Origin: Zoogloea sp.
GTDB lineage: Bacteria; Pseudomonadota; Gammaproteobacteria; Burkholderiales; Rhodocyclaceae
Direction: 5' to 3'
Assembly (NCBI GenBank): GCA_023150095.1
Contig: JAKLLO010000016.1
Span: 1 to 55,030 of the forward strand
DNA: 55,030 bases
The notes beneath the pieces were generated by a model, which ran no database searches, was not told the origin of the DNA, and worked only from the letters and a program-made list of their open reading frames with translations. A program made the translations under genes and the position numbers. Below, piece by piece: positions 4,341 to 34,580 of the stretch (position 1 is the stretch's first letter; every line of letters begins with the position of its first letter).

Positions 4341-4373
4341 TTTTATCTTACCATGGAACGAAAAAAAACGGCC

Positions 4374-5192
4374 TCAGCCCGCCCCCTCCGGCGCGGGATC
4401 ACGGGCCAGATGAATGCCGAGGAGAAAGCTCAGAAAGATCACGCCGATCACGCCAAAACCCAGCGCGAGCTCCTTGCCCTCGCCCCAGGCCTCGATGCCC
4501 GGCCAGGCCATCCGCGCCGTTCCCCAGGCGGCCACCAGCAGGCTCATGCCGCCCACGGCGAGCGCCATCACCCGGGAGGCGATGCGTGCGGTGCCGTCGG
4601 CTCGGGCGATCAGCCGGGCGATCCAGAAGCCGTTGGCGCCATCGGCCAGCAGCATGCCGAGCATGAAGGTGAGCCCCAGCCCCACCGCGTGGGCGGCGCC
4701 GCCGGCCTGCACGCCGGCCACCGCAAACAGCGCAGCCTGGCTCACCGTGTCGAAGGACAGCGCGAACAGCGCGCCCACCAGCGCCACGCCGGCCGGGTGG
4801 GCGACGCGGCCGAGACGCCCCAGCCAGCGCCCCTTGAGGCCGACCGGCTGCACCATTTCGTGCGCCTCGGCGGCCAGCACTGCACGCAAATTGAGCACGC
4901 CCAGCAGCGTGAGGAAACCGATGGAGATCCACGCGCCGGAGACTTCGAGCCATTCCGGCGTCGTCCAGTGGCGCGAGAGCAGGCTCACCGCCAGCGCGAT
5001 GGCGACCACCACCGCGCCGTGGCCGAGGGAGAACAGGGTGCCGCAAAAGCGCGCCCAGCGCGGGTTGGCGCGGGCGTTGAAGCGCGTCAGGCCGTCGATG
5101 GTGGCGAGGTGGTCGGCATCGAAGCCGTGTTTCACACCGAAAACGAAGACCAGCAGGACGAGGGCGAGTCCGTCGGCAGGCAGGGCGGTCAT
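4374..5192 (-). CDS. Nickel/cobalt permease, NiCoT (HoxN/HupN/NixA) family
   Basis: A polytopic inner-membrane permease of 272 residues. The NiCoT signature in TM2 is present (KHGFDADHLATIDGLTR), as is the TM3 motif LGHGAVVV. The TM5 motif, normally LGxDTATE, is diverged (LSFDTVSQ). At least seven hydrophobic segments are visible. The ATG at 5192 was chosen because the 33 upstream in-frame codons are charged and run through the candidate NikR operator. It is shorter than HoxN of Ralstonia but within the family range. As first gene of the NiCoT-receptor-tonB operon and close to nikR and the hydrogenase genes, high-affinity Ni2+ import for hydrogenase is the likely role. Confidence 0.88.
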   Translation of the reverse strand: MTALPADGLALVLLVFVFGVKHGFDADHLATIDGLTRFNARANPRWARFCGTLFSLGHGAVVVAIALAVSLLSRHWTTPEWLEVSGAWISIGFLTLLGVLNLRAVLAAEAHEMVQPVGLKGRWLGRLGRVAHPAGVALVGALFALSFDTVSQAALFAVAGVQAGGAAHAVGLGLTFMLGMLLADGANGFWIARLIARADGTARIASRVMALAVGGMSLLVAAWGTARMAWPGIEAWGEGKELALGFGVIGVIFLSFLLGIHLARDPAPEGAG

Positions 5193-5211
5193 GGCGGTTT
5201 TCCGGATGCGC

Positions 5212-5238
5212 GTATGAACAAATAATTTTAGTGCATAC
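5212..5238. promoter_or_regulatory. Candidate NikR operator
   Basis: GTATGA (5212-5217) and GCATAC (5233-5238) form an interrupted palindrome around an AT-rich 15-nt centre. It lies 20-46 bp upstream of the NiCoT start codon. The Escherichia coli NikR operator is GTATGA-N16-TCATAC, so the half-sites match but total length is one base shorter. A nikR gene lies about 1.5 kb away. Position over the promoter suggests Ni-dependent repression of the permease-receptor-tonB operon. Confidence 0.65.
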
Positions 5239-5322
5239 AACATCCGTGCCAAGACATCGCGCCCACAAAACCGGCCGGCGCAGCCAATCAACCGATCAGA
5301 CGATGACCAGCCGCGATACCAA

Positions 5323-10385: not shown

Positions 10386-11825
10386 CTAGTGGACGGTGCA
10401 CACCATGCAGGGATCGAAACTGCGCACCACGTGCTGCACCAGGAGCGGCGCGGCTTCCGGCAGGCCGACGAGCGCCTGCTCCAGCGCGCCGGGTGTGCCG
10501 GCCGCGTCGCGGGGCGAGAAGTTCCAGGTGGTCGGGGCGATGAGCTGGTAGCGCACGATGTGGCCGCCGCGCACCGTGAGCCAGTGGCCCAGCGCGCCCC
10601 GGGCGGCCTCCACCAGCCCGCAGCCGCGGCCGTCGGCGGGCAGCATCACCTGCTCGCAGAACGGCCCGTCGTCCAGCGCCGTGAGCCACTGCTCCATCGC
10701 CGGCACCACCAGCGCCAGCTCCAGCAGGCGGGCGATCACGCGGCTCGCCACGTTGCCGCCGTTCTCCATCACCAGCTCGCGGATCAGCGGATGGCCGGCC
10801 ACCACCTGGCGGGCCAGCGCGCCGCATTCGGCCACCTGCCCCTGCCAGCGGGGCGCCTTGCACCAGGTGTAGGCGCCGTCCTTGTGCTCCACGGGGCGGG
10901 TGTCGCCCTCGGAAGGGTGGCGCGGCACATCGGCCTCCAGCCAGGCGTGGGAGACGTCCTCCAGCACGTCGCCGGGCTCGAAGGGCTGCAGCGCGCCGGC
11001 GGGCAGGTCGAGCACGCCGCGGGGGAAGAGCCAGCCGGCGTCCTTGGGATAGGCGCCGTGGCTGAGGAAGCGGTCGGTGGCACGGCCGATCTGGGCCAGT
11101 TTGAGGTCGTCGGCGATGGCGAGGAACAGCCGGAAGTCGCTCGCCGTGGCCGGCCGGGCGTCCATCCAGCGGCGCAGGGCGGCAACCGAGTCGATGCCGG
11201 CGATGGCCTCCAGCCGGTCGCCGAAGAGGTGCCGCTCCAGCCACGCGCGGAACTCCCGCAGCGCCGCGAAGACGCGCAGGCGCTCGGCCATCTGGGGCGC
11301 CCGGGCCACGCCGCCGGGCTGCAGCGTCATGCTGTGGGGCCACTTGCCGGCCAGGCTGCCCATGATCTGCAAAAAGGCCGCCCGGGCCGGCAGGGCGTCG
11401 GCGGTGGCGCTGCCGGTGGTGGCCTTGAAGCGCGCCGCGGCGGCGTCGAACCACGGGCGACCGCGGTAGGCGTCCCGGGCAAAGTCCGGCATGAAGAAGA
11501 GGTAGAAGTGGGTGAAGTGGTCGGCCAGGTTCTCAGCCGCCAGGATCAGGTTGCTCACCCGCTGGCCGTTGGGCGTGGGCCGCACGCCGGCCAGATCGGC
11601 CAGCGCCGCCGCCGCCGCCGCCGACTGGGACACCGAGCAGATGCCACAGATGCGCGGCACGATGGCCAGCGCGTCCATCGGCTCGCGACCGATCAGTATC
11701 TGCTCGAAGCCGCGGAACAGCGGGGAGTTGACGTAGGCCGCGACCACCCGGCCGCCCTCGAAATCGAGGCTCACCTCCAGGTCGCCCTCGACACGGTTGA
11801 AGGGCCCAACGACCACACGATTCAA
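10386..11825 (-). CDS. hoxC: Regulatory (H2-sensing) [NiFe] hydrogenase large subunit
   Basis: HoxC/HupV, 479 residues. The N-terminal Ni-binding motif is RICGICSVSQ and the C-terminal motif DPCMVCTVH is the very end of the protein (C473, C476, H479). Catalytic large subunits have a cleavable extension after that His; its absence is the hallmark of regulatory hydrogenases, so no HupD-type protease is needed. No ATG is suitably placed. The best start is TTG at 11825 with GGGAG 7 nt upstream, giving the family-typical NRVVVGPFNRVEGDLEV; an ATT at 11831 is less likely. A longer open frame extends into the repeat at 11861-12011 and is rejected. With HoxB it forms the H2 receptor acting on HupT/HoxJ. 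Confidence 0.93.
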   Translation of the reverse strand: MNRVVVGPFNRVEGDLEVSLDFEGGRVVAAYVNSPLFRGFEQILIGREPMDALAIVPRICGICSVSQSAAAAAALADLAGVRPTPNGQRVSNLILAAENLADHFTHFYLFFMPDFARDAYRGRPWFDAAAARFKATTGSATADALPARAAFLQIMGSLAGKWPHSMTLQPGGVARAPQMAERLRVFAALREFRAWLERHLFGDRLEAIAGIDSVAALRRWMDARPATASDFRLFLAIADDLKLAQIGRATDRFLSHGAYPKDAGWLFPRGVLDLPAGALQPFEPGDVLEDVSHAWLEADVPRHPSEGDTRPVEHKDGAYTWCKAPRWQGQVAECGALARQVVAGHPLIRELVMENGGNVASRVIARLLELALVVPAMEQWLTALDDGPFCEQVMLPADGRGCGLVEAARGALGHWLTVRGGHIVRYQLIAPTTWNFSPRDAAGTPGALEQALVGLPEAAPLLVQHVVRSFDPCMVCTVH

Positions 11826-11860
11826 TTCAATACTCCCGTTGCCTGAGCGCCACCGGGGCC

Positions 11861-12011
11861 GGCCGCGCACGGCTGCCCCGAAACGGCTGGCCCGCCCCCA
11901 CGCGGAGGGGTGAGGCAGGGAACTCATGGCGCACTGCGCCATGCCTGCCAAACGGCCCGGCCATGCAAAGCCGGGCCTCCGCACCCCAGGCGCGTCGGGG
12001 GGCGTCGTTCA
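11861..12011. repeat. Dispersed structured repeat, copy A (between hoxB and hoxC)
   Basis: This 151-bp element matches 25188-25336 along its whole length, roughly three quarters identical by eye. The perfect palindrome ATGGCGCA-C-TGCGCCAT is unchanged in both copies. Read on the transcribed minus strand it folds into serial hairpins, including GGCCCGGC/GCCGGGCC, a C-run/G-run stem and an outer GGCC-rich arm. Arms of the first hairpin differ between copies yet stay complementary. It starts at the hoxB stop and ends about 20 bp before the hoxC ribosome binding site. Confidence 0.8.
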
Positions 12012-13004
12012 CTTCAGCCCCGTCTTGCGGATGGCCGGCGCGAGGACCGGCGTTTCGACCACCGCGTTCTGGCGCACCCGCGCCGGGGTGGCCGACTTGG
12101 ACAGCGCGGCCAGCGCCACGAACCACGCCTTGGGCATGTCGGACGGCAGCCCGATGGGGATGCCGGCCACCTTGGGCGTGCGGTCGAAGGCGTGGCCCGG
12201 CGACTCGAAGCCCGGCTCGGTGCAGCTGATGCACGGGTAGCCGCCGTTGGTGCACGAGCCGGCGCCGTTCCACGGCCGGGTGTTGCAGTCGGCGTGGGCC
12301 TGGGTGCCCTTGCAGCCCAGGTGCTCCATCATGCAGCCCAGGTCGCCGGGCTTCTCGGCGCTGGCCTTGAACTCGTAGAACTCGTTGCGGTTGCAGCCGT
12401 GATGCACCAGCTGGTCGGCGTAGAAGCGGGGGCGCCCGAGGGCGTCCATGTCAGCCTCGCCGAACTGCCCGAGGGCGAGGGCCAGCAGGGTGTCGGTGAC
12501 CCAGTCCGGGTGGGTCGGGCAGCCGGCCACGTTGATCACCGGCAGGCCGCCGGCCGAGCGGTAGTCGGCCCCCAGCAGGCCGCCCCGGTGGTCGCCGTCG
12601 TACTGCAGGCCGATGGCGCCGGCCGGGTTGTTGCCCGCCGCGGTGATGCCGCCGTAGGCCGCGCAGGTGCCCACGCCCAGGGTGTAGCGGGCGCGGGCGG
12701 CGAGGCTTTTGGCCCAGTCGATCATCGGCCGGCCGGTGCCCGCCAGCATGTGGAAGCGCCCGCTGCCGTTGGGGCCGGTGAGGAGCGAGCCTTCTACGCA
12801 CAGCAGGTCCAGCGGCCGGGCGCCGGATTCAAACTCCGCCAGCAGAGTACGCACCTCGTCGCCGCAGGCTTCGGAGAGCGACGGATGCCAGGCCAGCGTG
12901 ATGCCGGCCGAGCCGAGCAGCCCCAGCACGTCCCGCGCGCCGGAGCACAGCAGCGACATGGTGCAGCCGCCGCAGCCGCCGGACTGGAGCCACAGGAGGT
13001 TCAT
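12009..13004 (-). CDS. hoxB: Regulatory [NiFe] hydrogenase small subunit
   Basis: HoxB/HupU, 331 residues. It begins MNLLWLQSGGCGGCTMSLL with the proximal-cluster CxxC (C11, C14) at the very start, so there is no Tat signal and the protein is cytoplasmic. Further Fe-S cysteines follow in GVGTCAAYGG, NVAGCPTHPDW, HHGCNRNEFYEF, CKGTQAHADCNTRPWN and GYPCISCTEPGF. A C-terminal extension of about 50 residues after the last cluster motif ends IRKTGLK; in Ralstonia such an extension supports HoxBC dimerisation and contact with HoxJ. The ATG at 13004 has AGGAGG close upstream. It is followed by the structured repeat and then hoxC. Confidence 0.94.
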   Translation of the reverse strand: MNLLWLQSGGCGGCTMSLLCSGARDVLGLLGSAGITLAWHPSLSEACGDEVRTLLAEFESGARPLDLLCVEGSLLTGPNGSGRFHMLAGTGRPMIDWAKSLAARARYTLGVGTCAAYGGITAAGNNPAGAIGLQYDGDHRGGLLGADYRSAGGLPVINVAGCPTHPDWVTDTLLALALGQFGEADMDALGRPRFYADQLVHHGCNRNEFYEFKASAEKPGDLGCMMEHLGCKGTQAHADCNTRPWNGAGSCTNGGYPCISCTEPGFESPGHAFDRTPKVAGIPIGLPSDMPKAWFVALAALSKSATPARVRQNAVVETPVLAPAIRKTGLK

Positions 13005-13059: not shown

Positions 13060-14549
<1,490 letters not shown>

Positions 14550-14550
<1 letters not shown>

Positions 14551-16289
14551 CACTTGGCTGGGCTGGCCCCGGCGCGGTCGCGGTGCCGGGCGAGGTGGCG
14601 CGGCGTCCAGGATTGGGGGCTCTTCATCACGAAATGGTAGCGTGCCCCGTGGTAGCTGGGGTCGAAGCCGTAGAAGTTGCGGCGCATCCGGGCGAGTTCT
14701 TCGTCCCGGTAGGCGGAGAGGGGTTTGGCGGCTTCATCAAACGCGCGTCTCGCCTGCTTGGCGGCGAGGTGCTCGGCGTAGTCGGGCGCGGCGGCCAGCG
14801 CCTGGGCGCGGGCCAGCACCTCGGCCTCGAAGGCCGGGCGGTCGGCGCCAAAGGCGGCGTCGATCAGGCCGGCCTGCGCGGCGCGGGGTGCGCCCAGGGG
14901 CAGGCGCTCGGCCATGATCGCCCGGGCGGCGGCGTCGCCCACCCGGCGCGGCAGCAGGTAGGTCCAGTACTCGGAGCCGTACAGGTTGCCCATGTTCTTG
15001 TAGTGGGGGTTGAGGATGACGCCCTCCCGCGCCCACACGTGGTCGGCCGCCAGCGCCAGGAAGCAGCCGCCGGCGCCGGCATTGCCGCGCATTGCCGCCA
15101 CCGTGAGGCGGTCGGTGAGCTGCAGGATGGCGAGGCACACGTCGTCCATCGCGTTGATGTTGGCCCAGGATTCATCCGCCGCCGAACCGCCGGCCTGCTG
15201 CGCGGCCTCAATGCGGTTGAGGTGGATGCCGTTGGACCAGAAATCCGCCCCGCCTTCCAGCACCAGCACACGGGTGGGCCGGCTGCGGGCGAAGTCGATG
15301 GCGTCGATGAGGCGCCGGCACTGGTCGGTGGCCATCGCGCCGTTGTAGAAGTCGAAGCTCAATACGCCCACGGCGCCCTCCTCCCGGTAGCGCAGCTCGC
15401 CCCAGTCGGCGGCGTCGCGGATCAGCGGCGCGGGGCGCTCGGGCAGCTTGGCAGCCTCGGCCGCGAAGGCGACGGTGGCCGGCAGCTTGATGCCGCCCAC
15501 GCGCTTCACGTGGCCGATCCACAGCGCACCGTCGCGGGTGGCGCGGAGCACGGCGCCGTCGCGGCGGGCGATCAGGTCGCCGGGTATTGCGTCGGCTATT
15601 GCGCCGGGCTCAGACGCCGCCGGGTGGGCGTCGAAGAGGTGACAGGGCTCGCCGAACAGCGCGTCGGCGACGCCGGGAAAACCGTCGGCGGCGCGGATGC
15701 GGGCGAGGATCGTCGCGGTGTCGTCGCGGGCCCAGTCGATGGCGCGATCCAGCTGGCGCATCAGCGGCTGGAGCGTGCCGCGCACGGCGGGGTCGTCGGG
15801 CTGCGGGCGTTGCGGCTGCCAGCGGCCGGCGCACCAGTCGTCGAAGCAAGCCAGGGACTCGCACACCGCGGCCAGCGCGGCGTCGGTCACTTCGCTGCGA
15901 TAGACGCTGGCCTTGGTGGCTGCGCGCAGCGGGAAGACGCGGCTCGCCCACACCGGGCCGGCGTCCATCTCGGCTTCGGCCTGCAGCACCGTCACGCCCC
16001 ACTCGGCCTCGCCGCGCTGGATGGCCCAGTCGAGGGCCGACGGGCCGCGGTCGCCGACGATGCCCGGATGCACGATCAGGCACGGCAGGCGCGACCACAC
16101 GGATTCGGGGATCGCCCGCTTGAGGAAGGGCGCCAGCAGCAGGTCCGGCTGGAACAGCGCGACGGCCTCTTCGGTCACCGAGTCGGCGATGTCGAACTCC
16201 ACCGAGAGCTCGTGGCCGTCCGCCGCCAGCGCGTCGAAGAGGCGCTGGGTGAGGCTGTTGAAGCTGTGGCAGAGGACGAGGATGCGCAT
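14550..16289 (-). CDS. hoxX: Hydrogenase maturation CO synthase HoxX/HypX
   Basis: A protein of about 580 residues fusing an N-terminal formyl-THF transferase-like domain (MRILVLCHSFNSLTQRLF and the HPGIVGDRGPSALDWAI motif) with a C-terminal enoyl-CoA hydratase/isomerase-like domain (GGADFWSNGIHLNRIEA, MRGNAGAGGCFLALAADHV). In Ralstonia HoxX converts the formyl group of formyl-THF, through formyl-CoA, to CO for the active-site ligand under aerobic conditions. The ATG at 16289 gives the family-typical N-terminus; a GTG at 16298 with AAGG 8 nt upstream is an equally viable start. Its stop overlaps hoxA. Presence argues for hydrogenase maturation in air. Confidence 0.94.
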
Positions 16290-16335
16290 TGGGGTCACAG
16301 TTGGAACCTTGCCCAGGCGGGCGGCCGGGCGGCGC

Positions 16336-16638
16336 TCACAGAACGGCTTCGAAGCCCTCGAACTGCGGCGGGCCCAGGTAGATGTCGCGGCTGGAGCCGG
16401 CGCCAGCGTGGGCCTTGCGGAAGGCTTCGGAGCGCGTCCAGGCCTCGAAGGCGGCGGCGGATTCCCACACCGAGTGGCTGGCGAACAGCGTGAAGGCGTC
16501 GGTGGTCGGCCCCTGCAGCAGGTTGAAGGACTGGAAGCCGGGCACCTCGTCCAGGTGGGACTCGCGCTTTTTCCAGATCTCGATGAATTCGGCCTCGCGG
16601 CCGGGGGCGATGCGGAAGCGGTTCATGGCGATGAACAT
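16336..16638 (-). CDS. IsdG-like heme-degrading / ABM-family monooxygenase
   Basis: A 100-residue protein with the ferredoxin-like antibiotic-biosynthesis-monooxygenase fold. It begins MFIAMNRFRIAPGREAEFIE and contains HSVWESAAAFEAWTRSEAF and FRKAH. The Asn-Trp-His triad required by staphylococcal IsdG/IsdI heme monooxygenases can be placed at N6, W67 and H77, with flanking residues and spacing close to IsdG. The family binds heme and opens the porphyrin ring, releasing iron. It lies between hypE (31 bp) and hoxX (under 50 bp) on the same strand, so it is probably co-transcribed with the maturation genes. No IsdG-type protein belongs to the standard hydrogenase set. A different ABM-type activity remains possible. 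Confidence 0.75.
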   Translation of the reverse strand: MFIAMNRFRIAPGREAEFIEIWKKRESHLDEVPGFQSFNLLQGPTTDAFTLFASHSVWESAAAFEAWTRSEAFRKAHAGAGSSRDIYLGPPQFEGFEAVL

Positions 16639-16669
16639 GGCGGGCACTCCGGAAAGGGGAAAAACGGGA

Positions 16670-17716
16670 TCAGCAGATGCGCGGCAGCTGCTCGCCGGCG
16701 AGCCAGTCCACCATGCGGCGGCCACCGAAGGCGGTCTTCATCTGCACGAAGCGGTGATCGTCGGCGATGACCTCGCCCACCCGGGCGGCGCGGGCGCCGA
16801 GGGGATGGGCGCGCAGCGCGGCGACCAGCGCGTCGGCTTCATCGGCCGGGCACACGGCGATCAGCTTGCCTTCGTTGGCGATGTTGAGGGGGTCGAGGCC
16901 GAGGAACTCGCAGGCGGCGGCCACCTGCGGGTCCACGGGGATCGCCGCCTCGTCGAGCACGATGCCGACGCCGGACTGCTGGGCGATCTCGTTGAGGGTC
17001 GCCGCGAGCCCGCCACGGGTCGGGTCGCGCAGCAGGCGCAGGCCGGGCGCGGCGGCCATCGCCACGGCGGCGAGGCCGTGCAGCGCGGCGGTGTCGGAGC
17101 GGATTTCGGAGTCGAAGGCGAGGTTCTCGCGCTGGGCCATGATGGCCATGCCGTGATCGCCGAGGGTGCCGGAGACGATCACCGCGTCGCCGGCCCGGGC
17201 GTTCGCGCCGGAGAGCTGGCGGCCAGCCGACAGCGCGCCGATGCCGGTGGTGGTGGTGAACACCCCGTCGCCCTTGCCCTTCTCGACCACCTTGGTGTCG
17301 CCGGTGACCACCGGCACGCCGGCCTCCCTGGCCGCGGCGGCCATGCTGGCGACGATGCGGGCGAGGTCGGCGAGGGGAAAGCCCTCTTCGAGGATGAAGC
17401 TGGCGGCCAGATACAGCGGCCGGGCGCCCATCACCGCCACGTCGTTGATGGTGCCATGCACCGCCAGGCAGCCGATGTCGCCGCCGGGAAAGAACAGCGG
17501 CGAGACCACGTGGGCGTCGGTGGCGACCACCAGCCGCTCGCCGGGCCCGGGGGCCGGCAGCACCGCGCCGTCGTCGCCCTGGCGCAGCCATTCGTTGTCG
17601 AAGGCCTTGCCGAAGACGTCGCTGATGAGCTGGACCATCGCGCGGCCACCGCCGCCGTGGGAGAGGTCGACGCTGCCGTGACGCAGGTCGAGGGGTCGGA
17701 CGTAGTTTTTCTTCAT
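16670..17716 (-). CDS. hypE: Hydrogenase maturation factor HypE (carbamoyl dehydratase)
   Basis: HypE, 348 residues, with the AIR-synthase-like fold. Motifs are DLSHGGGGRAM and GDDGAVL near the N-terminus, then TINDVAVMGARP, TGDTKVVEKGKGDG and RDPTRGGLAATLNE, ending in the invariant PRIC. The C-terminal Cys receives a carbamoyl group from HypF, is dehydrated with ATP to thiocyanate, and donates CN to the HypCD iron. The ATG at 17716 gives MKKNYVRPLDL; upstream codons lack family similarity. It is flanked by two non-standard genes, the FIST chemoreceptor upstream and the IsdG-like gene downstream. Confidence 0.96.
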   Translation of the reverse strand: MKKNYVRPLDLRHGSVDLSHGGGGRAMVQLISDVFGKAFDNEWLRQGDDGAVLPAPGPGERLVVATDAHVVSPLFFPGGDIGCLAVHGTINDVAVMGARPLYLAASFILEEGFPLADLARIVASMAAAAREAGVPVVTGDTKVVEKGKGDGVFTTTTGIGALSAGRQLSGANARAGDAVIVSGTLGDHGMAIMAQRENLAFDSEIRSDTAALHGLAAVAMAAAPGLRLLRDPTRGGLAATLNEIAQQSGVGIVLDEAAIPVDPQVAAACEFLGLDPLNIANEGKLIAVCPADEADALVAALRAHPLGARAARVGEVIADDHRFVQMKTAFGGRRMVDWLAGEQLPRIC

Positions 17717-17779
17717 GGGCGCGTGTCGTTTCGGTCGGAGGCCCGGCCGGCCCGGCACGCGCGCACGTGCCGGAGCGGA

Positions 17780-19810
17780 TCAGGCCTGGGTCAGCTGGTT
17801 CTCGGTGAGGTGTCTGAGGGTGTCGGCCACCGCCCGGGTGTGGTCGGCGTTGCCGGCGGTCTGGCTGCTGATGGTCTCGATGTCGGTGAGGAGCGTGGAC
17901 AGGCGCGACACGTCGCCAGACTGGCGTTCGATCTCCTGGGCCACGCGGCCGATCTCGCCGGCCAGCGACGAGATGTCGGCGCCGATCTCGCCGGCGCTGG
18001 TGCGGGATTTCTCGGCGAGCTTGCGCACCTCGTCGGCCACCACCGCAAAGCCGCGCCCGGCCTCGCCGGCCCGGGCCGCCTCGATGGCGGCGTTGAGGGC
18101 CAGCAGGTTGGTCTGGTCGGCGATCTGCTGGATCACCTCGACCACGCCCTGGATGCGACCGCTGGCCAGCGCCAGCTGGCGGGCGCTGTCGGCGGCACCG
18201 GCGGCCTGGTTGGTGAGGTTGGTGACCATCGCGCCGGCGTCATGGATGACGCGCCCCTGCTCGTCGATGTGGCCGCCCAGATCGCCCACCGAGGCGTAGA
18301 GATCACCGGCGCAGGCTTCGAGCTGGCGCGCGGTGTCGTTGCGCAGCGCGAAGGACGAATGCAGCGTCTGGCCCAGGCTGTTGAGGCCACGCACCACCAG
18401 GGAGATGTTGTCGTCGAGGCCGGTCGGGTCGAACTGGCTGTCGAAGTGCTCGGACTGGTAATCGGCGATCTGGCGGACGATCACCCGCGACAGGCCGACG
18501 AACTTGTTGCTCTGGCGGCGCAGGAAGAAGGCCTTGAACTCGCCGTAGTGGGCGACGAAGTTGTCCACGAACTCGTCGCGGAAGGGCGCGCCCTCGGGCA
18601 CCCGGAAGAAGAACACCGCGGTGAGGGTCTGGTTGAGGTTGAGGCCGAGGATCTCGCCGAAGGTGGAGAAGCCGGCCATCTGCCCGCCGGGCAGCACGTC
18701 GCCGATGCGGGCGAGCTCCTTGTCGTTGTAGAGCCGGCGCAGGATGCAGTCGTTGAGGATGCCGGCCACCGGCAGGCCCGGCTTGCCGTTCATGAAGGCC
18801 TTGAAATCGCGCTCGGTGGCCTGGGCGAGGCCCGTGCGGCGGACCAGCAGCAGGTCTTCGCCCGGCGAGATGTCGCAGTAGAAATTGACCCGCCCGGCGT
18901 CGAGATTGACATTCACCACCGAGCGGACGAACAGCTCCTCACCGACCCTGATCGCGAAGGAGTAGTCGGCCAGCTTGCTCTCGAGCGCGTGAGGCTGGCA
19001 GCGGAAGTGCCGGCACAGGGCGTCGATGAAGGACACGATGCTGCCGTCCTCGGCGATCACCTGGCTCACGTAGCGCTGCTCCAGCGAGGCGCCGATCACC
19101 GGGAAGCGGGCGCCGTCGGGCTCGAAGTTGTGGCTCTTGAGGACGCCGAAACGTGTGCCCTTCGCCACCTTCAGGAAGGCGATCAGGGCGTGGTTCTCGA
19201 GCTTGCGGGTGCCGTCGTGGATCCAGGTGTTCTTGAAGTCGAACTTGCCGCCGGCCGAACCGCCCACGAACAGGCACGGGAAGCGCCCGGATTCGTAGAG
19301 CGCCTCCATGAAGAAGGATTCGGACGCCGACAGCCCGTCGAACAGGATGTGGGCGAAGGTGTCGCGGTGGTCGACGTCGATGTCCATGCGCACATCGCGG
19401 ATGCGCTTGGCGAGGGCCGCGACCCGGTCGCGCACCGGCATGTCGCGCTGGCCGCGGCGCAGGTCTTCGCTGCCCAGGGGCACGGCCACCACCTGCGCAC
19501 GGGCGATGAGCGAGGCGTCGAAGCACTGGATGACCACCCGATCCCAGCTGTTGCCGGTGGCGCAATAAAGCGGACCGGAACCGCTGCACAGTTCGCCAGC
19601 GGTGGAACACAGCATCACCGGCACCCCGGGGAAGCGCCCGCTCACCGCCCGGGCGACGGGCTCGATATCCACGTGGGGCGACACGTAGGCGCTGATGAAG
19701 GTGGGCTTGATGGCCGCCGCAGCGAGGGTCGATGACACATCGGCGGCGCGGCACTGCAGGGTATGCACGCCAGGCTGCTGCGCGGCGCGCAGCTTGCTGA
19801 ACAGGTTCAC
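17780..19810 (-). CDS. Soluble FIST-domain methyl-accepting chemotaxis protein
   Basis: This 676-residue protein starts at GTG 19810 with AAGGAG 8 nt upstream. N-terminal FIST domains occupy about 25-400, including [35 protein letters not shown] and [16 protein letters not shown] linker follows, then a chemoreceptor signalling domain with the conserved hairpin ([38 protein letters not shown]). No transmembrane segment or signal peptide is seen, so it is cytoplasmic. FIST domains are thought to bind small ligands such as amino acids. It sits between hypD (159-bp gap holding the perfect inverted repeat CTTCGG-AA-CCGAAG at 19927-19940) and hypE (63 bp). The context suggests a sensor tied to hydrogen metabolism; the ligand is unknown. 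Confidence 0.88.
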
Positions 19811-19969
19811 TTCTTGTCTCCTTGCGGGCCTCGAAAGGGGCCCTATCACCCGTGTATCGGCGAAGTTTGCGCAAGGTTGAGCCCCGAGCCGATGCGCGCC
19901 CCCCGCCCGGGGGCGACGTTCGTCATCTTCGGAACCGAAGTGGATAAAAGGATCGGGCGCCACGGAAGC

Positions 19970-21109
19970 TCAGCCGGCCATCACCGGGATGTCGCGGAAA
20001 CGCCCGTAGGTGTAGTGCGCGGCACAGGCGCCCTCGGACGACACCATGCACGAACCCATCGGCGTTTCGGGGGTGCACACGGTGCCGAAGAGCTTGCAGT
20101 CGAGGGGCGTCTTGACCCCGCGCAGGATCGCCCCGCACTCGCACGACTTGTGATCCGGCACCGGCTGGTAGACGAGCCCGAAGCGCGCCTCGGCGTCGAA
20201 GGCGGCGAAGCGCTCGCGGATGCGCAGGGCCGAGTACGGCACCATGCCCAGCCCGCGCCATTCAAACGCCTGGCGCAGCTCGAAGACCTCGGACACCAGC
20301 GCCTGGGCCTTGAGGTTGCCGTCTTCGGTGACAGCGCGGGTGAACTCGTTCTCCACCTCGGCGCGGCCTTCGTTCACCTGGCGCACCAGCATGCGGATGG
20401 CCTGCATCACATCCAGCGGCTCGAAGCCGGCGATCACCACCGGCTTGCGGTATTCCTCGGCGAAGTGGGCGTAGGGCCGGCTGCCGATGATGGTGCTCAC
20501 GTGGGCGGGGCCGATGAAGCCGTCGAGCGGCACCGTGCCCAGGTCGCGCACCTCGGGCGACTCGAGGATGGCGGTGATCGCCGACGGGGTGAGCACGTGG
20601 CAGCTGAGCACCGAGAAGTTGGTGAGCCCCAGCTCGGCCGCCTGGCGGATCACCAGCGCGGTGGGCGGCGTGGTGGTTTCGAAGCCGATGGCGAAGAACA
20701 CCACCTGCCGGTTCGGCTCCTTACGGGCCAGGGCCAGCGCGTCGGCGGCGGAGTAGATCATCCGGATGTCGGCGCCGCGGGCCCGGGCGCGGAGCATCGA
20801 CAGCCCCTCGGACGCCGGCACGCGCAGGGTGTCGCCGTAGGTGCACACGGTGACGCCTTCGGCGAGGGCCAGCTGGATCGCCTGGTCGATGCGGCCGATG
20901 GGCAGCACGCACACTGGGCAGCCGGGGCCGTGGATCATCCGGACTTCCGGCGGCAGCAGGTCGGCCACCCCGTAGCGGGAGATGGCGTGGGTGTGGCCGC
21001 CGCAGAACTCCATGAAGGCGTAGCGCCGGCCGGGCTCAACTTCGCGGGCGATGGCGGCGGCGAGGCCGCGGGCCACGTCGCCGTCGCGGAATTCATCCAC
21101 GTATTTCAT
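19970..21109 (-). CDS. hypD: Hydrogenase maturation factor HypD
   Basis: HypD, 379 residues: the [4Fe-4S] scaffold that, with HypC, holds the Fe(CN)2CO unit during assembly. Family cysteine motifs are all present: MEFCGGHTHAI, HGPGCPVCVLP and the C-terminal cluster set KSCECGAIL, DCKLFGTVCTPE and GSCMVSSEGACAAHY. The ATG at 21109 overlaps the hypC stop by 4 nt (ATGA), showing tight coupling with its partner. Length and motifs are as usual. Confidence 0.97.
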   Translation of the reverse strand: MKYVDEFRDGDVARGLAAAIAREVEPGRRYAFMEFCGGHTHAISRYGVADLLPPEVRMIHGPGCPVCVLPIGRIDQAIQLALAEGVTVCTYGDTLRVPASEGLSMLRARARGADIRMIYSAADALALARKEPNRQVVFFAIGFETTTPPTALVIRQAAELGLTNFSVLSCHVLTPSAITAILESPEVRDLGTVPLDGFIGPAHVSTIIGSRPYAHFAEEYRKPVVIAGFEPLDVMQAIRMLVRQVNEGRAEVENEFTRAVTEDGNLKAQALVSEVFELRQAFEWRGLGMVPYSALRIRERFAAFDAEARFGLVYQPVPDHKSCECGAILRGVKTPLDCKLFGTVCTPETPMGSCMVSSEGACAAHYTYGRFRDIPVMAG

Positions 21110-21342
21110 GCGGCCTCCGCGCCCACGTCGATGCCGGCCTGGGCCATCAGGGCGAGGGTCTGCTCGGCTTCCTCCGGATCGAGCCGGGTGAGCGCGTAGC
21201 CCACGTGGACGATCACGTAGTCGCCCACGACCACGCCGTCGACGAGTTCCAGCGAGATCGTCTTGCGCACGCCGCCGAGATCGACGACGGCCTGGCTGTC
21301 GGGAAGGAGTTCGACCACGCGGGTCGGAATGGCGAGGCACAT
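21106..21342 (-). CDS. hypC: Hydrogenase maturation chaperone HypC
   Basis: HypC, 78 residues, beginning MCLAIPTRVVELL with the essential Cys2 that binds the iron moiety; the small beta-barrel core is complete (GDYVIVHVGYALTRLDPEEA). It carries the Fe(CN)2CO group from HypD to the large-subunit precursor. A second HypC-like protein, HupF, is encoded at 28491. It follows the HhH gene by 18 bp and overlaps hypD by 4 nt. Confidence 0.97.
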   Translation of the reverse strand: MCLAIPTRVVELLPDSQAVVDLGGVRKTISLELVDGVVVGDYVIVHVGYALTRLDPEEAEQTLALMAQAGIDVGAEAA

Positions 21343-21360
21343 GGGTTCAGTCCTTGGGGT

Positions 21361-21650
21361 TCAGTCGCTGCCACCGAGGCGCGCCTTGCGCTCGGCGGTG
21401 TAGGCCCACCACGGGCGGGCCGGCTCGCCGCCCATGAAACGGGTGGCGGCGATGAAGGTGTCGAGCAGGCACGGGTCGCTGCGGATGCCGCAGACGGCGT
21501 TGAACTCGGCGTAGAGCTCGAAGGGATCGCGCCCGGCAAGCTGCGCCGGGGCGTCGATGCCGATCCGGCGCAGGCTGTCGGCGACGGCCTTGCCCACGTT
21601 GGGGATGTCCTCCAGCCGGCGCACGCTGGCCGGAATGGCGTTCAGCTTGC

Positions 21651-21654
<4 letters not shown>
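21361..21654 (-). CDS. Helix-hairpin-helix protein (Cdd1/pathogenicity-locus-like)
   Basis: A 97-residue protein with a helix-hairpin-helix segment near the N-terminus (RLEDIPNVGKAVADSLRRIG). It continues with DPFELYAEFNAVCGIRSDPC and FMGGEPARPWWAYTAERKA, the pattern I associate with the Cdd1 (pathogenicity locus) family. The start is GTG 21654, overlapping the hypF stop by 4 nt (GTGA), so it is translationally coupled to hypF and 18 bp ahead of hypC. HhH motifs usually contact nucleic acid or protein. No role in hydrogenase assembly is known to me; coupling is the only hint. Family assignment is by eye. Confidence 0.75.
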
Positions 21655-24032
<2,378 letters not shown>

Positions 24033-24039
24033 TGGCGGG

Positions 24040-25107
24040 TCAGCCTTTCGCGGCGAGCTGCGCTTCGAGGGCAGCGATGCGCGCCCGAAGCTGCTCCACG
24101 GTGGCCACCCGGGCGGCGCGGGCCGCGGCAAGGCGCGCATCGATCCAGCCCAGCCATTCGTCGAAACCGGCGCCGGTGGTGGCCGACACCTGGATCACCT
24201 GCAGCTGGGGGTTCACGCGGCGGGCGAAGTCGATGGCGCGGGCGACGTCGAAGCTCAGGTAGGGCAATAGATCAACCTTATTGACCAACATCAGGCTGGC
24301 GGCGGCGAACATGTCGGGGTACTTGAGGGGCTTGTCCTCGCCTTCGGTGACCGACAGCACCACCACCTTGGCGGCTTCGCCCAGGTCGAAGGCGGCCGGG
24401 CAGACGAGGTTGCCGACGTTCTCGATGAGCAGCACGCTGTCGTCGGGCGGGGCGAGTTTTTCCAGCGCATGGCCGACCATCAGCGCGTCCAGGTGACAGC
24501 CCTTGCCGGTGTTGATCTGCAGCGCCGGGGCGCCGGTGGCGCGGATGCGCTCGGCGTCGAAGCTGGTCTGCTGGTCGCCCTCGACCACCGCCACCGGCGC
24601 CGCGCCCGGGCGGGCCTTGAGGGCGTCGATGGTGCGCACCAGCAGGGTCGTCTTGCCCGAGCCGGGGCTGGACACGAGGTTGAGGGCCAGGATGCCCCGG
24701 TCGGCCAGCCAGCCGCGGTTGCGCTCGGCGTAGCCGTCGTTCTTGGCGAGGATGTTCTGCTCGATCTTGACCATCTGCGCCTGGCTCATGCCCGGGGCGT
24801 GGGCGCCGGCCGGGCCGTGGCCGTAGTGCAGGCTGCCGTCGCCGGCATCCTCGGCGTGGGAATGGGCGTGGTCGGCGGTGTGCACGTGGTCGTGGGTGTG
24901 CCAGCTGCCGTCGGCGTGCTGGTGCGCATGGCCGTGGGTGCCGGCGGGCACCCACTGGTGGCTGTGGGCGTGCTCGCCATCGTGGCCGTGGGCGTGGCGA
25001 TGGACGGTGCCATCGGCGTGCACGTGTTCGTGGGCGTGACCATCCCGGTCAAGCGCTTCGCCTTCGATACGGGTTTCACCGGCCCCGCAGCCGCACACAT
25101 TGCACAT
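24040..25107 (-). CDS. hypB: Nickel-insertion GTPase HypB
   Basis: HypB, 355 residues. It begins [14 protein letters not shown] with the N-terminal CxxCGC high-affinity nickel motif. A His-rich nickel-storage region follows (about 28-110, dozens of His alternating with Ala/Asp/Gly). The SIMIBI GTPase domain has P-loop [11 protein letters not shown], the metal-switch stretch [19 protein letters not shown] and [11 protein letters not shown]-terminal Ala/Arg coiled-coil-like tail follows. With HypA it loads nickel into large-subunit precursors. The long His tract suggests a storage role, consistent with the NikR and NiCoT genes nearby. The gap to hypA is filled by the structured repeat. Confidence 0.97.
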
Positions 25108-25187
25108 CTCAGTTCTCCATTGCCTCACTTACCACCCCGATACCACCCCAGCGCACGACTGCAACACCCGACCCCCAACCCTAGGTC

Positions 25188-25336
25188 GGCCGCGCGCGGC
25201 CGCTCCGAAGCGGCCGACCTGCCCCCCATTGGGGGGTGAGGTGGGGAATTCATGGCGCACTGCGCCATGCCTGCCGAACGGGTCGGCGGTGCCAGCCGAC
25301 CCTCCGTGCCGCAGGCACATCGGGGGGCGTCGTTCA
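25188..25336. repeat. Dispersed structured repeat, copy B (between hypA and hypB)
   Basis: The counterpart of 11861-12011. On the transcribed minus strand it reads as GTGCC-TGC-GGCAC, GGGTCGGC/GCCGACCC, the invariant 17-nt palindrome ATGGCGCA-G-TGCGCCAT, CCCCCC-AAT-GGGGGG, and nested GGTCGGCCGC/GCGGCCGACC around GGCCGCT-TCGG-AGCGGCC. It begins just after the hypA stop (8-bp gap) and ends about 80 bp before the hypB start. Short open frames across it (MAHCAMPA... on plus, MAQCAM... on minus) come from the palindrome and are not credible genes. Confidence 0.8.
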
Positions 25337-25344
25337 TCTCGGCT

Positions 25345-25686
25345 TCATTCGATTTCGAGTTCCTTCACCCGCATCTCGGTGCCGCCGGTGGCCTGCACCT
25401 GGTAGCTGCCGCAATTGGGGCACGGATCATACAGCGCGCCGATGGGCACGCTCATGGCGCACTGCATGCACCAGCCCTGGCCGGGCACGGCGTCGATCTG
25501 GAGGGCGGCGCCGTCGGCGATGCTGTCCTTCATCACCACGTCGAAGCAGAAGCGCAGGGCCTCGGGTTCGACCGACGAAAGCTGGCCGATTTCCAGCACG
25601 ACCGTCTTCACCTTGCGAAAACCCTGGGCGCGCCCGGCGTCCTCGACGATCTGGCGGATGCCTTCCGCCAGCGACATTTCATGCAT
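25345..25686 (-). CDS. hypA: Nickel metallochaperone HypA
   Basis: HypA, 113 residues. It starts MHEMSLAEGI with the nickel ligand His2; the zinc site is two CxxC pairs, WCMQCAM and PCPNCGSY. It delivers nickel together with HypB. The ATG at 25686 was chosen over an internal ATG three codons later because the MHE N-terminus is needed for Ni binding. It overlaps the end of hupK by 8 bp. The 237-bp gap to hypB, holding the structured repeat, is the largest inside this run. Confidence 0.96.
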   Translation of the reverse strand: MHEMSLAEGIRQIVEDAGRAQGFRKVKTVVLEIGQLSSVEPEALRFCFDVVMKDSIADGAALQIDAVPGQGWCMQCAMSVPIGALYDPCPNCGSYQVQATGGTEMRVKELEIE

Positions 25687-30986: not shown

Positions 30987-31691
30987 TCAGTCCTTGAACA
31001 TCCGCCAGCCCGACACCATCGTGGAGATCAGGCTCTGGCGGCTCATGATGTCCTCACGGATCGCGGCGTAGATGTGCACCACCGCAAAGCTCATCATGAT
31101 CCACATGCCCAGCCGGTGCAGGCTGTGGGTCTGCATCGACCCGCCCAGCAACGGCAGCACCCAGCCGAACAGCCGATCGGCCCACGAGCCCAGCCCCAGG
31201 CCTTCGCTGTACAGCGCGAAGCCGGTGAAGAGCATCCCGAAGGCCAGCACGGTGAAGAAGAAGAACATCATCAGCTGGGCCATCGGGTTGTGGCCGACGT
31301 ACTTCTTCGGGTGCTTCTCGAGGAACAGATACCAGCGCAGTTCGAAGAACACCTCGCTCCACCACTGTCCATTGGTGATCGGCAGCTTGAAGATCTGCCG
31401 GGCGTGGTGGTTGCCCACGAACGCCCAGTAACCCCGCCCGATCAGCCCCACCGCGAAGATGTAGGCCGCCGCGAAGTGGGCGAAGCGGATGTAGCCCATC
31501 AGGAAGTTGTCCGACGCCTCGCCGGGCATCGTCGGCAGCGGCTTGCCGATGAAGTAGCCGCTCACCGCCAGCACGACGATCGCCAGGGCGTTGATCCAGT
31601 GCCACAGGCGCACCGGCGCCTCATACACGTAGATCGAACGTACCTGCCGGCCGTGCCGTTCGGCCTCCAGCATGTCTTGTTGTGAAAGCAT
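30987..31691 (-). CDS. hupC: Uptake hydrogenase cytochrome b subunit HupC/HoxZ
   Basis: A 234-residue di-heme cytochrome b that anchors HupSL and passes electrons to quinone. Four TM helices are visible, including APVRLWHWINALAIVVLAVS, the hydrophobic run LMMFFFFTVLAFGMLFTGFA and HRLGMWIMMSFAVVHIYAAI. His residues in these helices and in GYIRFAHFAAAYIFA are the expected heme ligands. The ATG at 31691 lies 13 bp after the hupL stop. It ends the hupSLC transcript at the terminator around 30945; hupD and the other assembly genes are not directly downstream, unlike most hup operons. Confidence 0.95.
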   Translation of the reverse strand: MLSQQDMLEAERHGRQVRSIYVYEAPVRLWHWINALAIVVLAVSGYFIGKPLPTMPGEASDNFLMGYIRFAHFAAAYIFAVGLIGRGYWAFVGNHHARQIFKLPITNGQWWSEVFFELRWYLFLEKHPKKYVGHNPMAQLMMFFFFTVLAFGMLFTGFALYSEGLGLGSWADRLFGWVLPLLGGSMQTHSLHRLGMWIMMSFAVVHIYAAIREDIMSRQSLISTMVSGWRMFKD

Positions 31692-31704
31692 GACGGCCTC
31701 CCGT

Positions 31705-33498
31705 TCAGCGGACCTTGATCGATGCCATTTCCTGCCCGTCCGGCGACAGCACATGGGTGGAGCAAGCCATGCACGGGTCGAAGGAATGCAGGGTGCGCAG
31801 GATTTCCAGCGGTTCGTCGGCCTTGGCCACCGGGGTGTCCATCAGCGAGGCCTCGAAGGCGCCGATCTGGCCCTTGGCATCCCGCGGACCGCCGTTCCAG
31901 GTGGTGGGCACCACCGCCTGGTAGTTGTCGATGCGGGTGTCCTTGATGCGGATCCAGTGGCCCAGCGCGCCGCGGGGTGCCTCGGTGAAGCCCACGCCCT
32001 TGGCGTCCTTCGGCCAGGTGGAGGGGTCCCACTTTTCGATGTTGGCGGTGGAGAGATCGCCGGCCTTCAGGTTGGCCATCAGCTTGTCGAAGAAGTAGCG
32101 CGACTTATGCGCCGCCCAGGACGCCTCCAGGCCCCGCGCCGCGGTGCGGCCGAGGGTCGAGAAGATCGCCTTGAGGGGCAGGCCGAGATCCTTCAGCAGC
32201 TTGTCCACCGGCTCCTTGAACTCGGGGTTGTTCTGGGCGTAGCCGATCACGTAGCGCGACAGGGGGCCGACCTCCATCGCGTGGCCGCGCCAGCGCGGGG
32301 CCTTGATCCACGAGTACTTGCCGGCTTCGTCCAGGTTCTCGATCCTGGTCTTGGTGCCCTTGGTGGCCTTGCCCAGCTCGAAGTTGGGTTCGGTCACGCC
32401 GTCCCACGGGTGCAGGCCGCGGGTCTCGTCGGCGTACTTGTACCAGCTGTGCGCCACGTGCTCCTGCACCTGCTCGGGGTCGCGCAGGTCGACTTCATGC
32501 ACCTTGCTGAGGTCGCCGTTGATGATGGCGCCGCGGGGCAGCAGCAGGTTCTTGGCCGAGTAGTCGTTGGCCACGTCCGGGATGTCGCCGTACGAGAGCA
32601 CGCACTGGCTCGACAGGCCGCCGCCGTAGGTCCAGTCCTTGTAGAAGCTGGCGATGGCGACGAGATCGGGCACGTACACCATGTCGATGAACTCGATGCA
32701 GCGGTCGATGATCGAGGCGATCAGGTTGAGCCGCTCCATGTTGATCGCGCCGACCGCGCCCGTGCCTTCCAGGTTGATCGCGCAGGGCACGCCACCCACC
32801 AGCCAGTTCGGGTGCGGGTTCTTGCCGCCGAAGATGGTGTGGATCTTGACGATCTCCTTCTGGAAATCGAGCGCCTCCAGGTAGTGCGTCACCGCCATCA
32901 GGTTGGCTTCCGGCGGCAGGCGGTAGGCCGGGCTGCCCCAGTAGCCGTTCATGAAGGGGCCGAGCTGGCCGGATTCGACGAACTTCTTGAGGCGGTTCTG
33001 CACGTCGCGGAAGTAGCCCGGCGACGACAGCGGCCAGGCCGAGATGCTCTGGGCGAGCTCGGAGGTCTTCTTCGGATCGGCCTTCAGGGCCGACACCACA
33101 TCCACCCAGTCGAGCGCGTGCAGGTGGTAGAAGTGCACCAGGTGGTCATGCACCTGCAGCGCCAGCTGCATCAGGTTGCGGATGATGTTGGCGTTCTCGG
33201 GGATCTTGATGTTGAGGGCGTCTTCCACCGCGCGCACCGAGGTGAGCGCGTGGGTGCCGGTGCACACGCCGCAGATCCGCTCGGTGAAGGCCCACGCATC
33301 GCGCGGGTCGCGGCCCTTCAGGATCACCTCCAGCCCGCGCCACATGGTGCCCGTCGACACCGCGTTGCGGATCACGTTCTTCTCGTCGATGTTCACTTCG
33401 ACGCGCAGATGGCCCTCGATCCGACACACCGGATCGACCACCACGCGCTTGCCCGAGTTGTCGAGCTTGAAGCCCTGGGTTTCCAGCACCGTCATCAT
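31705..33498 (-). CDS. hupL: Uptake [NiFe] hydrogenase large subunit
   Basis: HupL/HoxG, 597 residues, carrying the Ni-Fe(CN)2CO site. The N-terminal ligand motif is [13 protein letters not shown] (C76, C79) and the C-terminal one is DPCMACSTH (C576, C579, H582). A 15-residue extension ([15 protein letters not shown]) follows H582 and is the HupD cleavage substrate. The ATG at 33498 overlaps the hupS stop (ATGATGA); the second ATG three bases later is equally good, with GGGAG serving either. It is exported by piggyback on the Tat signal of HupS. Sequence is complete and typical of group 1 membrane-bound enzymes. Confidence 0.97.
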
Positions 33499-34580
33499 TT
33501 GTCTCCCGAATTCTTGTCGTCTTGCTGCGAGCGGGCGCGCGCCAGCGCCGTCACCGCCGCGTGGGCTGCCACTGCCGCGCCCACCGCGCCGGCGGCCGTC
33601 GCGCCGATCTTGTCGGCATTGGCCTCGACGCCGAACTGATGGATGTCGGTCACCCGGTCGTAGAAGCTGCCCTTGTCCCAGAAGCCTTCTTCCGAGCAGC
33701 CGATGCAACCGTGGCCGGATTGCACCGGCCAGCTCACGCCGCCGTTCCAGCGCATCGACGAGCAGGCGTTGTAGGTGGTCGGCCCCTTGCAGCCCATCTT
33801 GTAGAGGCAGTAGCCCTTGCGCGCAGCTTCGTCGTCCCAGTTCTCGACGAACTGGCCGGCGTCGAAGTGCGGGCGGCGGTAGCACTTGTCGTGGATGCGC
33901 TGGCCGTAGAACATCTTCGGCCGGCCCTGGCGGTCGAGCTCGGGGATGCGGTCGAAGGTCAGCATGTAGGTCACCACGCCGGTCATCACCTCGGCGATCG
34001 GCGGGCAGCCGGGCACGCGGACGATCGGCTTGTTGGTGATCACCTGATGCACCGGGGTCGCCCGGGTCGGGTTGGGCTTGGCGGCCTGCACACAGCCGTA
34101 GGACGCGCAGGCGCCCCAGCTGATGATCGCCTTGGCGTCGGCGCAGGTTTCCTTCAGCACCTCAACAAACGGCCGGCCGCCGTGGATGCAGAACATGCCG
34201 TCCTCGTTGAGGGGCGGGTTGCCCTCCACCGCCACGATGTAGTTGCCCTTGTACTTCTTCTTCACCTCTTCGATGATCGCCTCGGCCTGGTGGCCGGCGG
34301 CGGCCATCAGGGTGTCGTCGTAGTCGAGGGACAGCATCGACAGCACCACGTCCTTGGTGAGCGGATGCGCCGAGCGGATGAAGGATTCGGAGCAGCAGGT
34401 GCACTCCAGCCCGTGCAGCCAGATCACCGGCGTACGCGGCTTGGTCTCCAGCGCGTGGGCGATCTTCGGCACGAACGCGCTACCCAGCCCCAGCGACGTG
34501 GCCGTCAGGCTGCAGAACTTCATGAAGCTGCGTCGGGTAATCCCCTGCCGGCGCAGCACCTCGTAAAATGTTTCGGTCAT
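33495..34580 (-). CDS. hupS: Uptake [NiFe] hydrogenase small subunit, O2-tolerant type
   Basis: HupS/HoxK, 361 residues. The Tat signal is ITRRSFMKF (residues 14-22) with a hydrophobic stretch ending near AHALE. The proximal cluster region has ECTCC (C60, C62, C63) and ACASYGC (C158, C163). C62 and C163 correspond to the two supernumerary cysteines (C19, C120) that form the [4Fe-3S] cluster of O2-tolerant group 1d enzymes such as Ralstonia MBH and E. coli Hyd-1. Medial and distal cluster motifs ([33 protein letters not shown]) are intact. A C-terminal hydrophobic anchor follows (about 320-345). The ATG at 34580 is preceded by GGAGGGGAGG. It is first gene of the operon. Confidence 0.97.

Follow-up and report, generated by a model that had tools for sequence, protein, structure and literature searches.

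A predicted HmuQ-type heme-degrading monooxygenase encoded between hypE and hoxX in Zoogloea

Why would a gene for a predicted heme-degrading enzyme lie among the genes that mature a NiFe hydrogenase? The question is raised by a 55,030-nucleotide stretch of Zoogloea sp. DNA (GenBank assembly GCA_023150095.1, contig JAKLLO010000016.1), referred to here as the window, in which such a gene separates hypE from hoxX.

The gene and its hydrogenase neighbors

A complete open reading frame of 303 nt (100 codons, 100 aa) occupies exactly positions 16336-16638 of the minus strand, from an ATG start (16638-16636), with GGAG 8 nt 5' of it, to a TGA stop (16338-16336). The last base of hypE, at 16670, leaves a gap of 31 nt, and hoxX follows after 37 nt if it starts at GTG 16298 or 46 nt if it starts at ATG 16289; all three genes are on the same strand. 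The Pfam ABM and NCBIfam HmuQ E-values, together with low dN/dS, confirm that this is a real gene and not a chance reading frame. The original prediction of a gene at this position between hypE and hoxX, within the maturation operon just ahead of hoxX, was borne out by the reading frame coordinates, the models matched by the neighbors, the common strand and the short gaps. The relevant features of the window are as follows.

10386..13004, minus strand: hoxB and hoxC, regulatory (H2-sensing) hydrogenase (small- and large-subunit models below cut-offs; names by position)
13060..14553, minus strand: hoxA-like NtrC-family response regulator (NtrC-family models, all below cut-off; name by position)
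14550..16298, minus strand: hoxX/hypX (Pfam Formyl_trans_N, Formyl_trans_C and ECH_1 in a single chain)
16336..16638, minus strand: predicted HmuQ-type heme-degrading monooxygenase, ABM fold (NF053649, Pfam ABM, AlphaFold/Foldseek)
16670..17758, minus strand: hypE (TIGR02124, 448 bits, cut-off 251.6)
17780..19963, minus strand: FIST-domain (NosP-like) methyl-accepting chemotaxis protein (FIST-MCP), between hypD and hypE (Pfam FIST, FIST_C, MCPsignal)
19970..21340, minus strand: hypD (TIGR00075, 470.8 bits, cut-off 192.8)
21651..24140, minus strand: hypF (TIGR00143, 740.5 bits, cut-off 466.1)
24040..25128, minus strand: hypB (NF007775, 403.2 bits, and TIGR00073, 285 bits, each above cut-off)
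30987..34580, minus strand: membrane-bound hydrogenase hoxK-hoxG-hoxZ (TIGR00391 and TIGR02125 above cut-off, PRK10170 below)

The locus resembles the Cupriavidus necator-type hyp/hox operon in its core order (which we take to be hypE-hoxX-hoxA in that organism), its regulatory hydrogenase and its O2-tolerant membrane-bound hydrogenase. It differs from that type in the addition of FIST-MCP between hypD and hypE and of HmuQ between hypE and hoxX, neither of which is among the ancillary proteins named in the available text of a 2025 review (PMC12134894). The combination of formyl-transferase and enoyl-CoA-hydratase-like domains in one protein is the HoxX/HypX layout in Pfam terms, and HoxX is described in the same excerpts as making the CO ligand in air from formyl-THF (PMC12134894). 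HoxZ is a b-type cytochrome subunit by its model match. The cysteines of HoxK fall at positions 60, 62, 63, 158, 163 and 192, a spacing that we take to be that of the six-cysteine proximal cluster type of O2-tolerant hydrogenases.

The FIST-MCP protein scored 124.5 bits against the NosP model, below its cut-off of 450. FIST/NosP proteins are NO and heme sensors, and a candidate heme-linked receptor and a predicted heme-degrading enzyme possibly share one operon here. The idea of a heme-sensing module made of the two is suggestive only: FIST-MCP accompanies HmuQ at 7/7 HmuQ loci, but it is also present at 9/15 hypE loci without HmuQ. A FIST-MCP homologue lies 5' of hypE at 16 of the 22 hypE loci in 21 genomes of the genus, and none was found in 12 hoxX loci of other genera (L094-L105, short flanks). 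Downstream of the cluster, the minus strand at 1540-5291 encodes a NicO-type nickel/cobalt transporter together with TonB and a TonB-dependent receptor. That receptor reached only 37 and 38 bits against heme-receptor models with cut-offs of 317 and 324, respectively. Adjoining HmuQ, neither a heme-uptake gene nor a dedicated reductase was identified.

A pattern scan of 14000-25500 detected no promoter of sigma-70 type; it did pick out three terminator-like sites, a number not above the shuffled-sequence level, and none of these sites was on the operon strand at 16200-16700. In three carriers (G015, G019 and G021), only a few nt separate the HmuQ stop from the hoxX start. We infer that HmuQ is co-transcribed with the maturation genes. 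Pairwise dN/dS for the seven HmuQ sequences of the genus was 0.04-0.19 (21 pairs); hypE gave 0.03-0.15 over as many pairs, and hoxX 0.13-0.23 over 15. These values indicate that HmuQ is under purifying selection, like hypE.

Protein family, catalytic residues and predicted fold

The protein matched the NCBIfam model for heme-degrading protein HmuQ (NF053649) above its curated cut-off (154.4 bits, cut-off 130, E=8.8e-46) and over its full length (profile positions 1-99 of 102), and it also matched Pfam ABM (76.5 bits, E=1.8e-21). The family includes HmuQ/HmuD of Bradyrhizobium japonicum (Puri and O'Brian 2006, via the available part of review PMC6449446). The Zoogloea protein is like that family in its score, its full-length match and its N/W/H triad, a likeness drawn through the family model and the review. 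Scores against the staphylococcal-type models were far below cut-off (IsdI, 28.8 vs 200 bits; IsdG, 23 vs 156 bits).

The catalytic residues N6, W67 and H77 are all present in the Zoogloea protein. Their conservation was assessed in an alignment of 87 rows, made up of the seven genus sequences and the 80 loci described below (85 distinct records, because two loci duplicate two genus members). N6 is found in 87/87 rows and W67 and H77 in 86/87; the remaining row, L049, is translated only as far as residue 57. Against a profile of the 87 rows, the three further ABM-family genes in this genome scored 9.9 bits or less.

A monomeric AlphaFold model built from 50 window and locus sequences had a mean pLDDT of 93.4 and the ferredoxin-like ABM fold. 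In Foldseek searches, for which TM values are to the query and among the best 50 of 1275 rows, Thermus TT1380 ranked first or third by chain, followed by B. cereus IsdG and heme-bound IsdG/IsdI (TM 0.84-0.87). Among the same best 50, heme-free staphylococcal IsdG/IsdI chains gave TM 0.71-0.82, MhuD 0.76-0.80, HmoB 0.81, and proteins without a recognized heme role 0.62-0.79, including LsrG at 0.67-0.69. Because of these ranks of heme and other ABM-fold proteins, the modeled fold favors the heme branch without proving it. The best match in sequence and fold is the Thermus thermophilus protein TT1380 (PDB: 1iuj), which its deposit calls hypothetical; identity in the structural alignment is 37%. 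The likeness to IsdG/IsdI of staphylococci lies in the fold (best chains TM 0.84-0.87, others 0.71-0.82) and the triad; identity is about 18-24% in structural alignments, and the product may differ.

The gene thus very probably encodes a heme-breaking enzyme of the HmuQ type. The triad named in the original prediction is indeed at those positions and family-wide in the 87-row alignment, whereas the label of IsdG-like heme monooxygenase holds in part: by sequence, the protein is a heme-degrading ABM-fold protein, but it belongs to the HmuQ subfamily and not to IsdG proper.

Distribution and origin of the gene

Among 23 Zoogloea genomes, 21 had hypE over cut-off, nine a near full-length hoxX and seven HmuQ over cut-off. 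All seven HmuQ genes lie directly after hypE on the same strand, a conserved order that speaks for membership of the hyp operon in Zoogloea, and no second HmuQ match was found in any carrier. The order hypE-HmuQ-hoxX is present in six of the seven (G000, G003, G015, G019, G020 and G021). In the seventh (G016, the record of locus L006), hoxA follows HmuQ after approximately 73 nt with no hoxX between; this hypE-HmuQ-hoxA arrangement (L006, 4592-6458; L173, 402-2268) is on a single 6,859-base MAG contig with a stated coverage of approximately 4. G016 is an assembly of approximately 80% completeness with at best a weak match to hoxX. Because the contig is of low coverage, and because a second hyp locus in this genome is truncated within hypE by the end of its own contig, hoxX may be off-contig.

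Three of the nine hoxX-bearing Zoogloea have no HmuQ (G008, G017 and G018); the hoxX match of G008 has one in-frame TGA. One further genome (G010) had a weak HmuQ match of 79.6 bits, below cut-off, on a 2.2 kb locus in which a search for hyp genes found none. One Zoogloea without HmuQ has a ccdAB-like toxin-antitoxin pair at the hypE-hoxX joint (L092, 864-1471). A search for heme oxygenase family PF01126 found no member in the genome of the window, which is 89% complete; the carrier G016 has a PF01126 match. The first result speaks for the role preferred below, the second against it.

The hypE tree does not unite the seven carriers in a single clade: it calls for two changes and places G016 on a branch apart, so that a single HmuQ gain alone does not explain the distribution. 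The history may have been one of gain plus loss, or of transfer of the whole locus. The HmuQ genes of the seven carriers diverge up to dS 0.78. Between the window and G003, dS is 0.34 for HmuQ, above 0.12 for hypE and 0.23 for hoxX, and this higher value hints at a separate exchange of the HmuQ gene.

Outside the genus, a contig scan confirmed at least 511 relatives, and the 80 closest among the matches listed were taken as loci. Two of these 80 are in a hyp operon setting (L005 and L006), both from Zoogloea. The other 78 are not in a hyp operon within the flank (up to 10 kb, shorter in some), where the sole hyp match, in L026, spans 10% of HypF; several also match generic regulator and chemotaxis domains. 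There is no widely common neighbor family among the 80 closest of the matches listed, the largest occurring at nine loci, and no common heme-uptake neighbor. In a Nevskiales MAG (L009, 6389-15259), the HmuQ gene is embedded in antisense orientation in a nif cluster, and a probable rhodanese gene precedes it; three Oxidored_nitro proteins were confirmed there, and nifH, nifK, HAD and rhodanese were named by eye.

Homologues also occur on 66 plasmid records, five of which were inspected. In two of these five, Sinorhizobium pSymB and Chelatococcus, hemin-uptake genes lie within 3 kb of over-cut-off homologues, unlike the Zoogloea gene, which is in a hyp/hox operon. No hemin-uptake genes were found near the plasmid homologues of Azospirillum, Roseomonas and Thermus; the Roseomonas homologue is one gene away from fhuF, and the Thermus homologue, at 71 bits, falls short of the HmuQ cut-off of 130.

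In a phylum sample of 398 genomes (hoxX at E<=1e-90, HmuQ at E<=1e-10, curated cut-off 130 bits), 22 had hoxX and 87 had HmuQ, 58 of them over cut-off. Two had both: the genome of the window and G221, where the genes are on separate contigs. A family sample of 249 genomes contained HmuQ in 34, hoxX in 125 and both in 22; hoxX was present in 22/34 HmuQ genomes compared with 103/215 others (one-sided p=0.05, kinship ignored), and without nine listed genus members in 17/29 compared with 102/211 (p=0.20, kinship ignored). Five of the 22 family genomes with both genes are Zoogloea. In the 17 others, the two genes are together in none: 12 have them on different contigs, and in five they share a contig but are separated by 0.7 Mb or more (tables read by eye). 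A family-wide link between HmuQ and hoxX was rejected on these phylum and family data. The conserved linkage to hyp/hox genes whose absence would count against the original prediction is complete within the genus (7/7) and was not seen outside it in the samples surveyed, and co-occurrence with hoxX is slight in the phylum and family samples.

From 149 hoxX genomes, 63 hoxX loci were checked with flanks of up to 1.5 kb. HmuQ is at six of these, all Zoogloea, and 57 are without it; linkage to hyp/hox genes across genera, as expected of a general hydrogenase maturation factor, was not found in this set. Where hypE is upstream on the same strand, the hypE-hoxX gap exceeds 300 nt in 15/54 loci. Six of these long gaps contain HmuQ, one the ccdAB pair (L092), three a small antisense ORF (L095, L100 and L228), one (L125) long open frames of ambiguous nature, and four nothing nameable. 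The small antisense ORF (L095, 3360-3575; L100, 3381-3599; hypE-hoxX gap of L228) is in genera other than Zoogloea; it encodes approximately 70 aa in L095 and L100, with the core [FY]IAAVR..DG[RK]R, and the L095 stretch, scanned on the plus strand, had no Pfam match.

The origin of the gene was considered with a tree that took 25 of the 29 HmuQ sequences found in the rest of the family. Twenty-four of the 25 group in a single clade that also takes in one Azomonas sequence and is separate from five Zoogloea copies (fork 96/83), a placement which suggests that Zoogloea acquired its HmuQ separately. The Zoogloea copies are nearer to other lineages, at a resolution of 100 columns that cannot resolve the donor, and one supported clade of Zoogloea copies appeared in neither of two trees. 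The tree placement, combined with the stable position and the selection on the gene, indicates that HmuQ was probably gained sideways and then retained.

Possible roles beside hypE and hoxX

Our preferred reading, to which we give a probability of roughly 0.4, is that HmuQ is a heme-degrading monooxygenase with an auxiliary role in iron recycling or heme turnover during the making of the O2-tolerant hydrogenase, and that the gene was gained sideways and is dispensable. The enzyme would be expressed with the maturation genes while the hydrogenase is made in air, and it would open heme using O2 and a reductant to give iron and a bilin. The likeliest use would be iron recycling or heme turnover where the Fe-S clusters, the NiFe site and the cytochrome b of HoxZ are assembled. 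This use is ranked first because it asks least; hitch-hiking is a serious rival, CO from heme a bold proposal and formaldehyde the weakest. The gene appears dispensable because three hoxX-bearing Zoogloea are without it, and it is probably a conserved yet optional side gene of one hydrogenase locus and no general hyp component; a hydrogenase role limited to part of one genus is possible. Against any such role stand the lack of a hyp/hox link outside the genus in the samples surveyed, the 3/9 hoxX-bearing Zoogloea without HmuQ and the frequent presence of other DNA at the hypE-hoxX joint (15/54 gaps of more than 300 nt, six of them with HmuQ). Against iron supply, the iron of the E. coli NiFe cofactor is reported in the available part of a 2024 paper to come via Isc (PMC10847431).

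HmuQ could instead be a stand-alone heme-degrading or detoxifying gene at a permissive hyp joint, where the operon gives it expression alone and it has no part in hydrogenase biology, and we regard this as a real, if tentative, possibility. It fits the scatter of neighbors (largest family at 9/80 loci among the matches listed), the slight co-occurrence with hoxX (phylum 2/398; family p=0.05, or p=0.20 without the genus), the other genes that occupy the same joint and the separate clade of 24/25 other family sequences, which suggests separate acquisition. A mere passenger is harder to reconcile with a place kept in 7/7 carriers despite HmuQ dS of up to 0.78, with near-zero HmuQ-hoxX spacing in several carriers and with the lack of a second HmuQ match in any of them. 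The ABM fold serves several chemistries, and an enzyme of this fold acting on a non-heme substrate, for example a quinone, would agree with the mixed names among the best 50 of 1275 Foldseek matches, with the TM of 0.71-0.72 for some heme-free IsdG chains (no better than the 0.62-0.79 of other ABM proteins) and with the 80 nearest homologues among the matches listed having no common heme-uptake neighbor. Such a substrate is nonetheless rather unlikely, given that the HmuQ cut-off is passed, the triad is invariant, the Thermus relative and heme-degrading enzymes come out as the best structural neighbors among those 50, and some homologues lie near hemin-uptake genes.

It is also unlikely that HmuQ opens heme to biliverdin and CO, with the CO becoming or supplementing the NiFe carbonyl beside HoxX or in its place. 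The Bradyrhizobium HmuQ-type enzyme is described in the review excerpts as HO-1-like in structure and function and as yielding biliverdin, while its membership of the IsdG family is not decided there (PMC6449446). If the same chemistry applied in Zoogloea, the carbon lost from heme would be released as CO, not formaldehyde, judging from HO-1. CO supply would be chemically apt because added CO can be incorporated into the NiFe cofactor under anoxic conditions (PMC12134894, in part). On the other hand, MhuD (PMC8801480), IsdG (PMC10148152) and Chlamydomonas LFO1 (PMC5557675), which share the fold, are reported in the available portions of these papers to release no CO. Six of the seven carriers also have hoxX, and three hoxX-bearing Zoogloea are without HmuQ. 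The adjoining position of HmuQ and hoxX in those six and the one hypE-HmuQ-hoxA locus without hoxX between speak for a CO donor, but that locus is the low-coverage MAG contig, and hoxX may lie elsewhere in its genome. In a bolder form, heme would be a carbon source for the hydrogenase site, with CO (perhaps also iron) passing from HmuQ to HypCD as a second oxic route that backs up HoxX and replaces it in one lineage; we consider this a long shot. Very improbable is the earlier idea that formaldehyde would be converted to formyl-THF and feed HoxX: general metabolism makes formyl-THF, one HmuQ locus has no adjoining hoxX, and 57/63 hoxX loci checked have no HmuQ. In the available text, IsdG-type enzymes do release formaldehyde (PMC10148152) and HoxX does use formyl-THF (PMC12134894), but IsdG paired with one reductase gave little of it, 9.7% of the hemin degraded (PMC10148152). 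Formaldehyde was set aside as a lead in view of the biliverdin reported for HmuQ (PMC6449446, in part) and of the one locus that keeps HmuQ without an adjoining hoxX.

The predicted enzyme is of a known type, and its setting in a hyp/hox operon was found in a single genus among the samples surveyed. No HmuQ or ABM gene tied to a hyp/hox operon was found in the open-licence literature, as represented by titles and abstract openings; the available part of a proteome study of a Mesorhizobium hypE mutant lists a lowered ABM protein with no link to hypE stated (PMC10454058). The origin of the iron and CO of the NiFe cofactor is only partly settled: excerpts of the 2025 review call the anoxic CO source unresolved (PMC12134894), and those of the 2024 paper call the iron source unresolved before indicating Isc in E. 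coli (PMC10847431). A heme-opening enzyme at the hypE-hoxX joint, if true, would free iron and possibly CO there; if the gene is a hitch-hiker, it would be a caution against inferring function from operon position. Either way, the hoxX operons with and without HmuQ in one genus offer a ready natural comparison.
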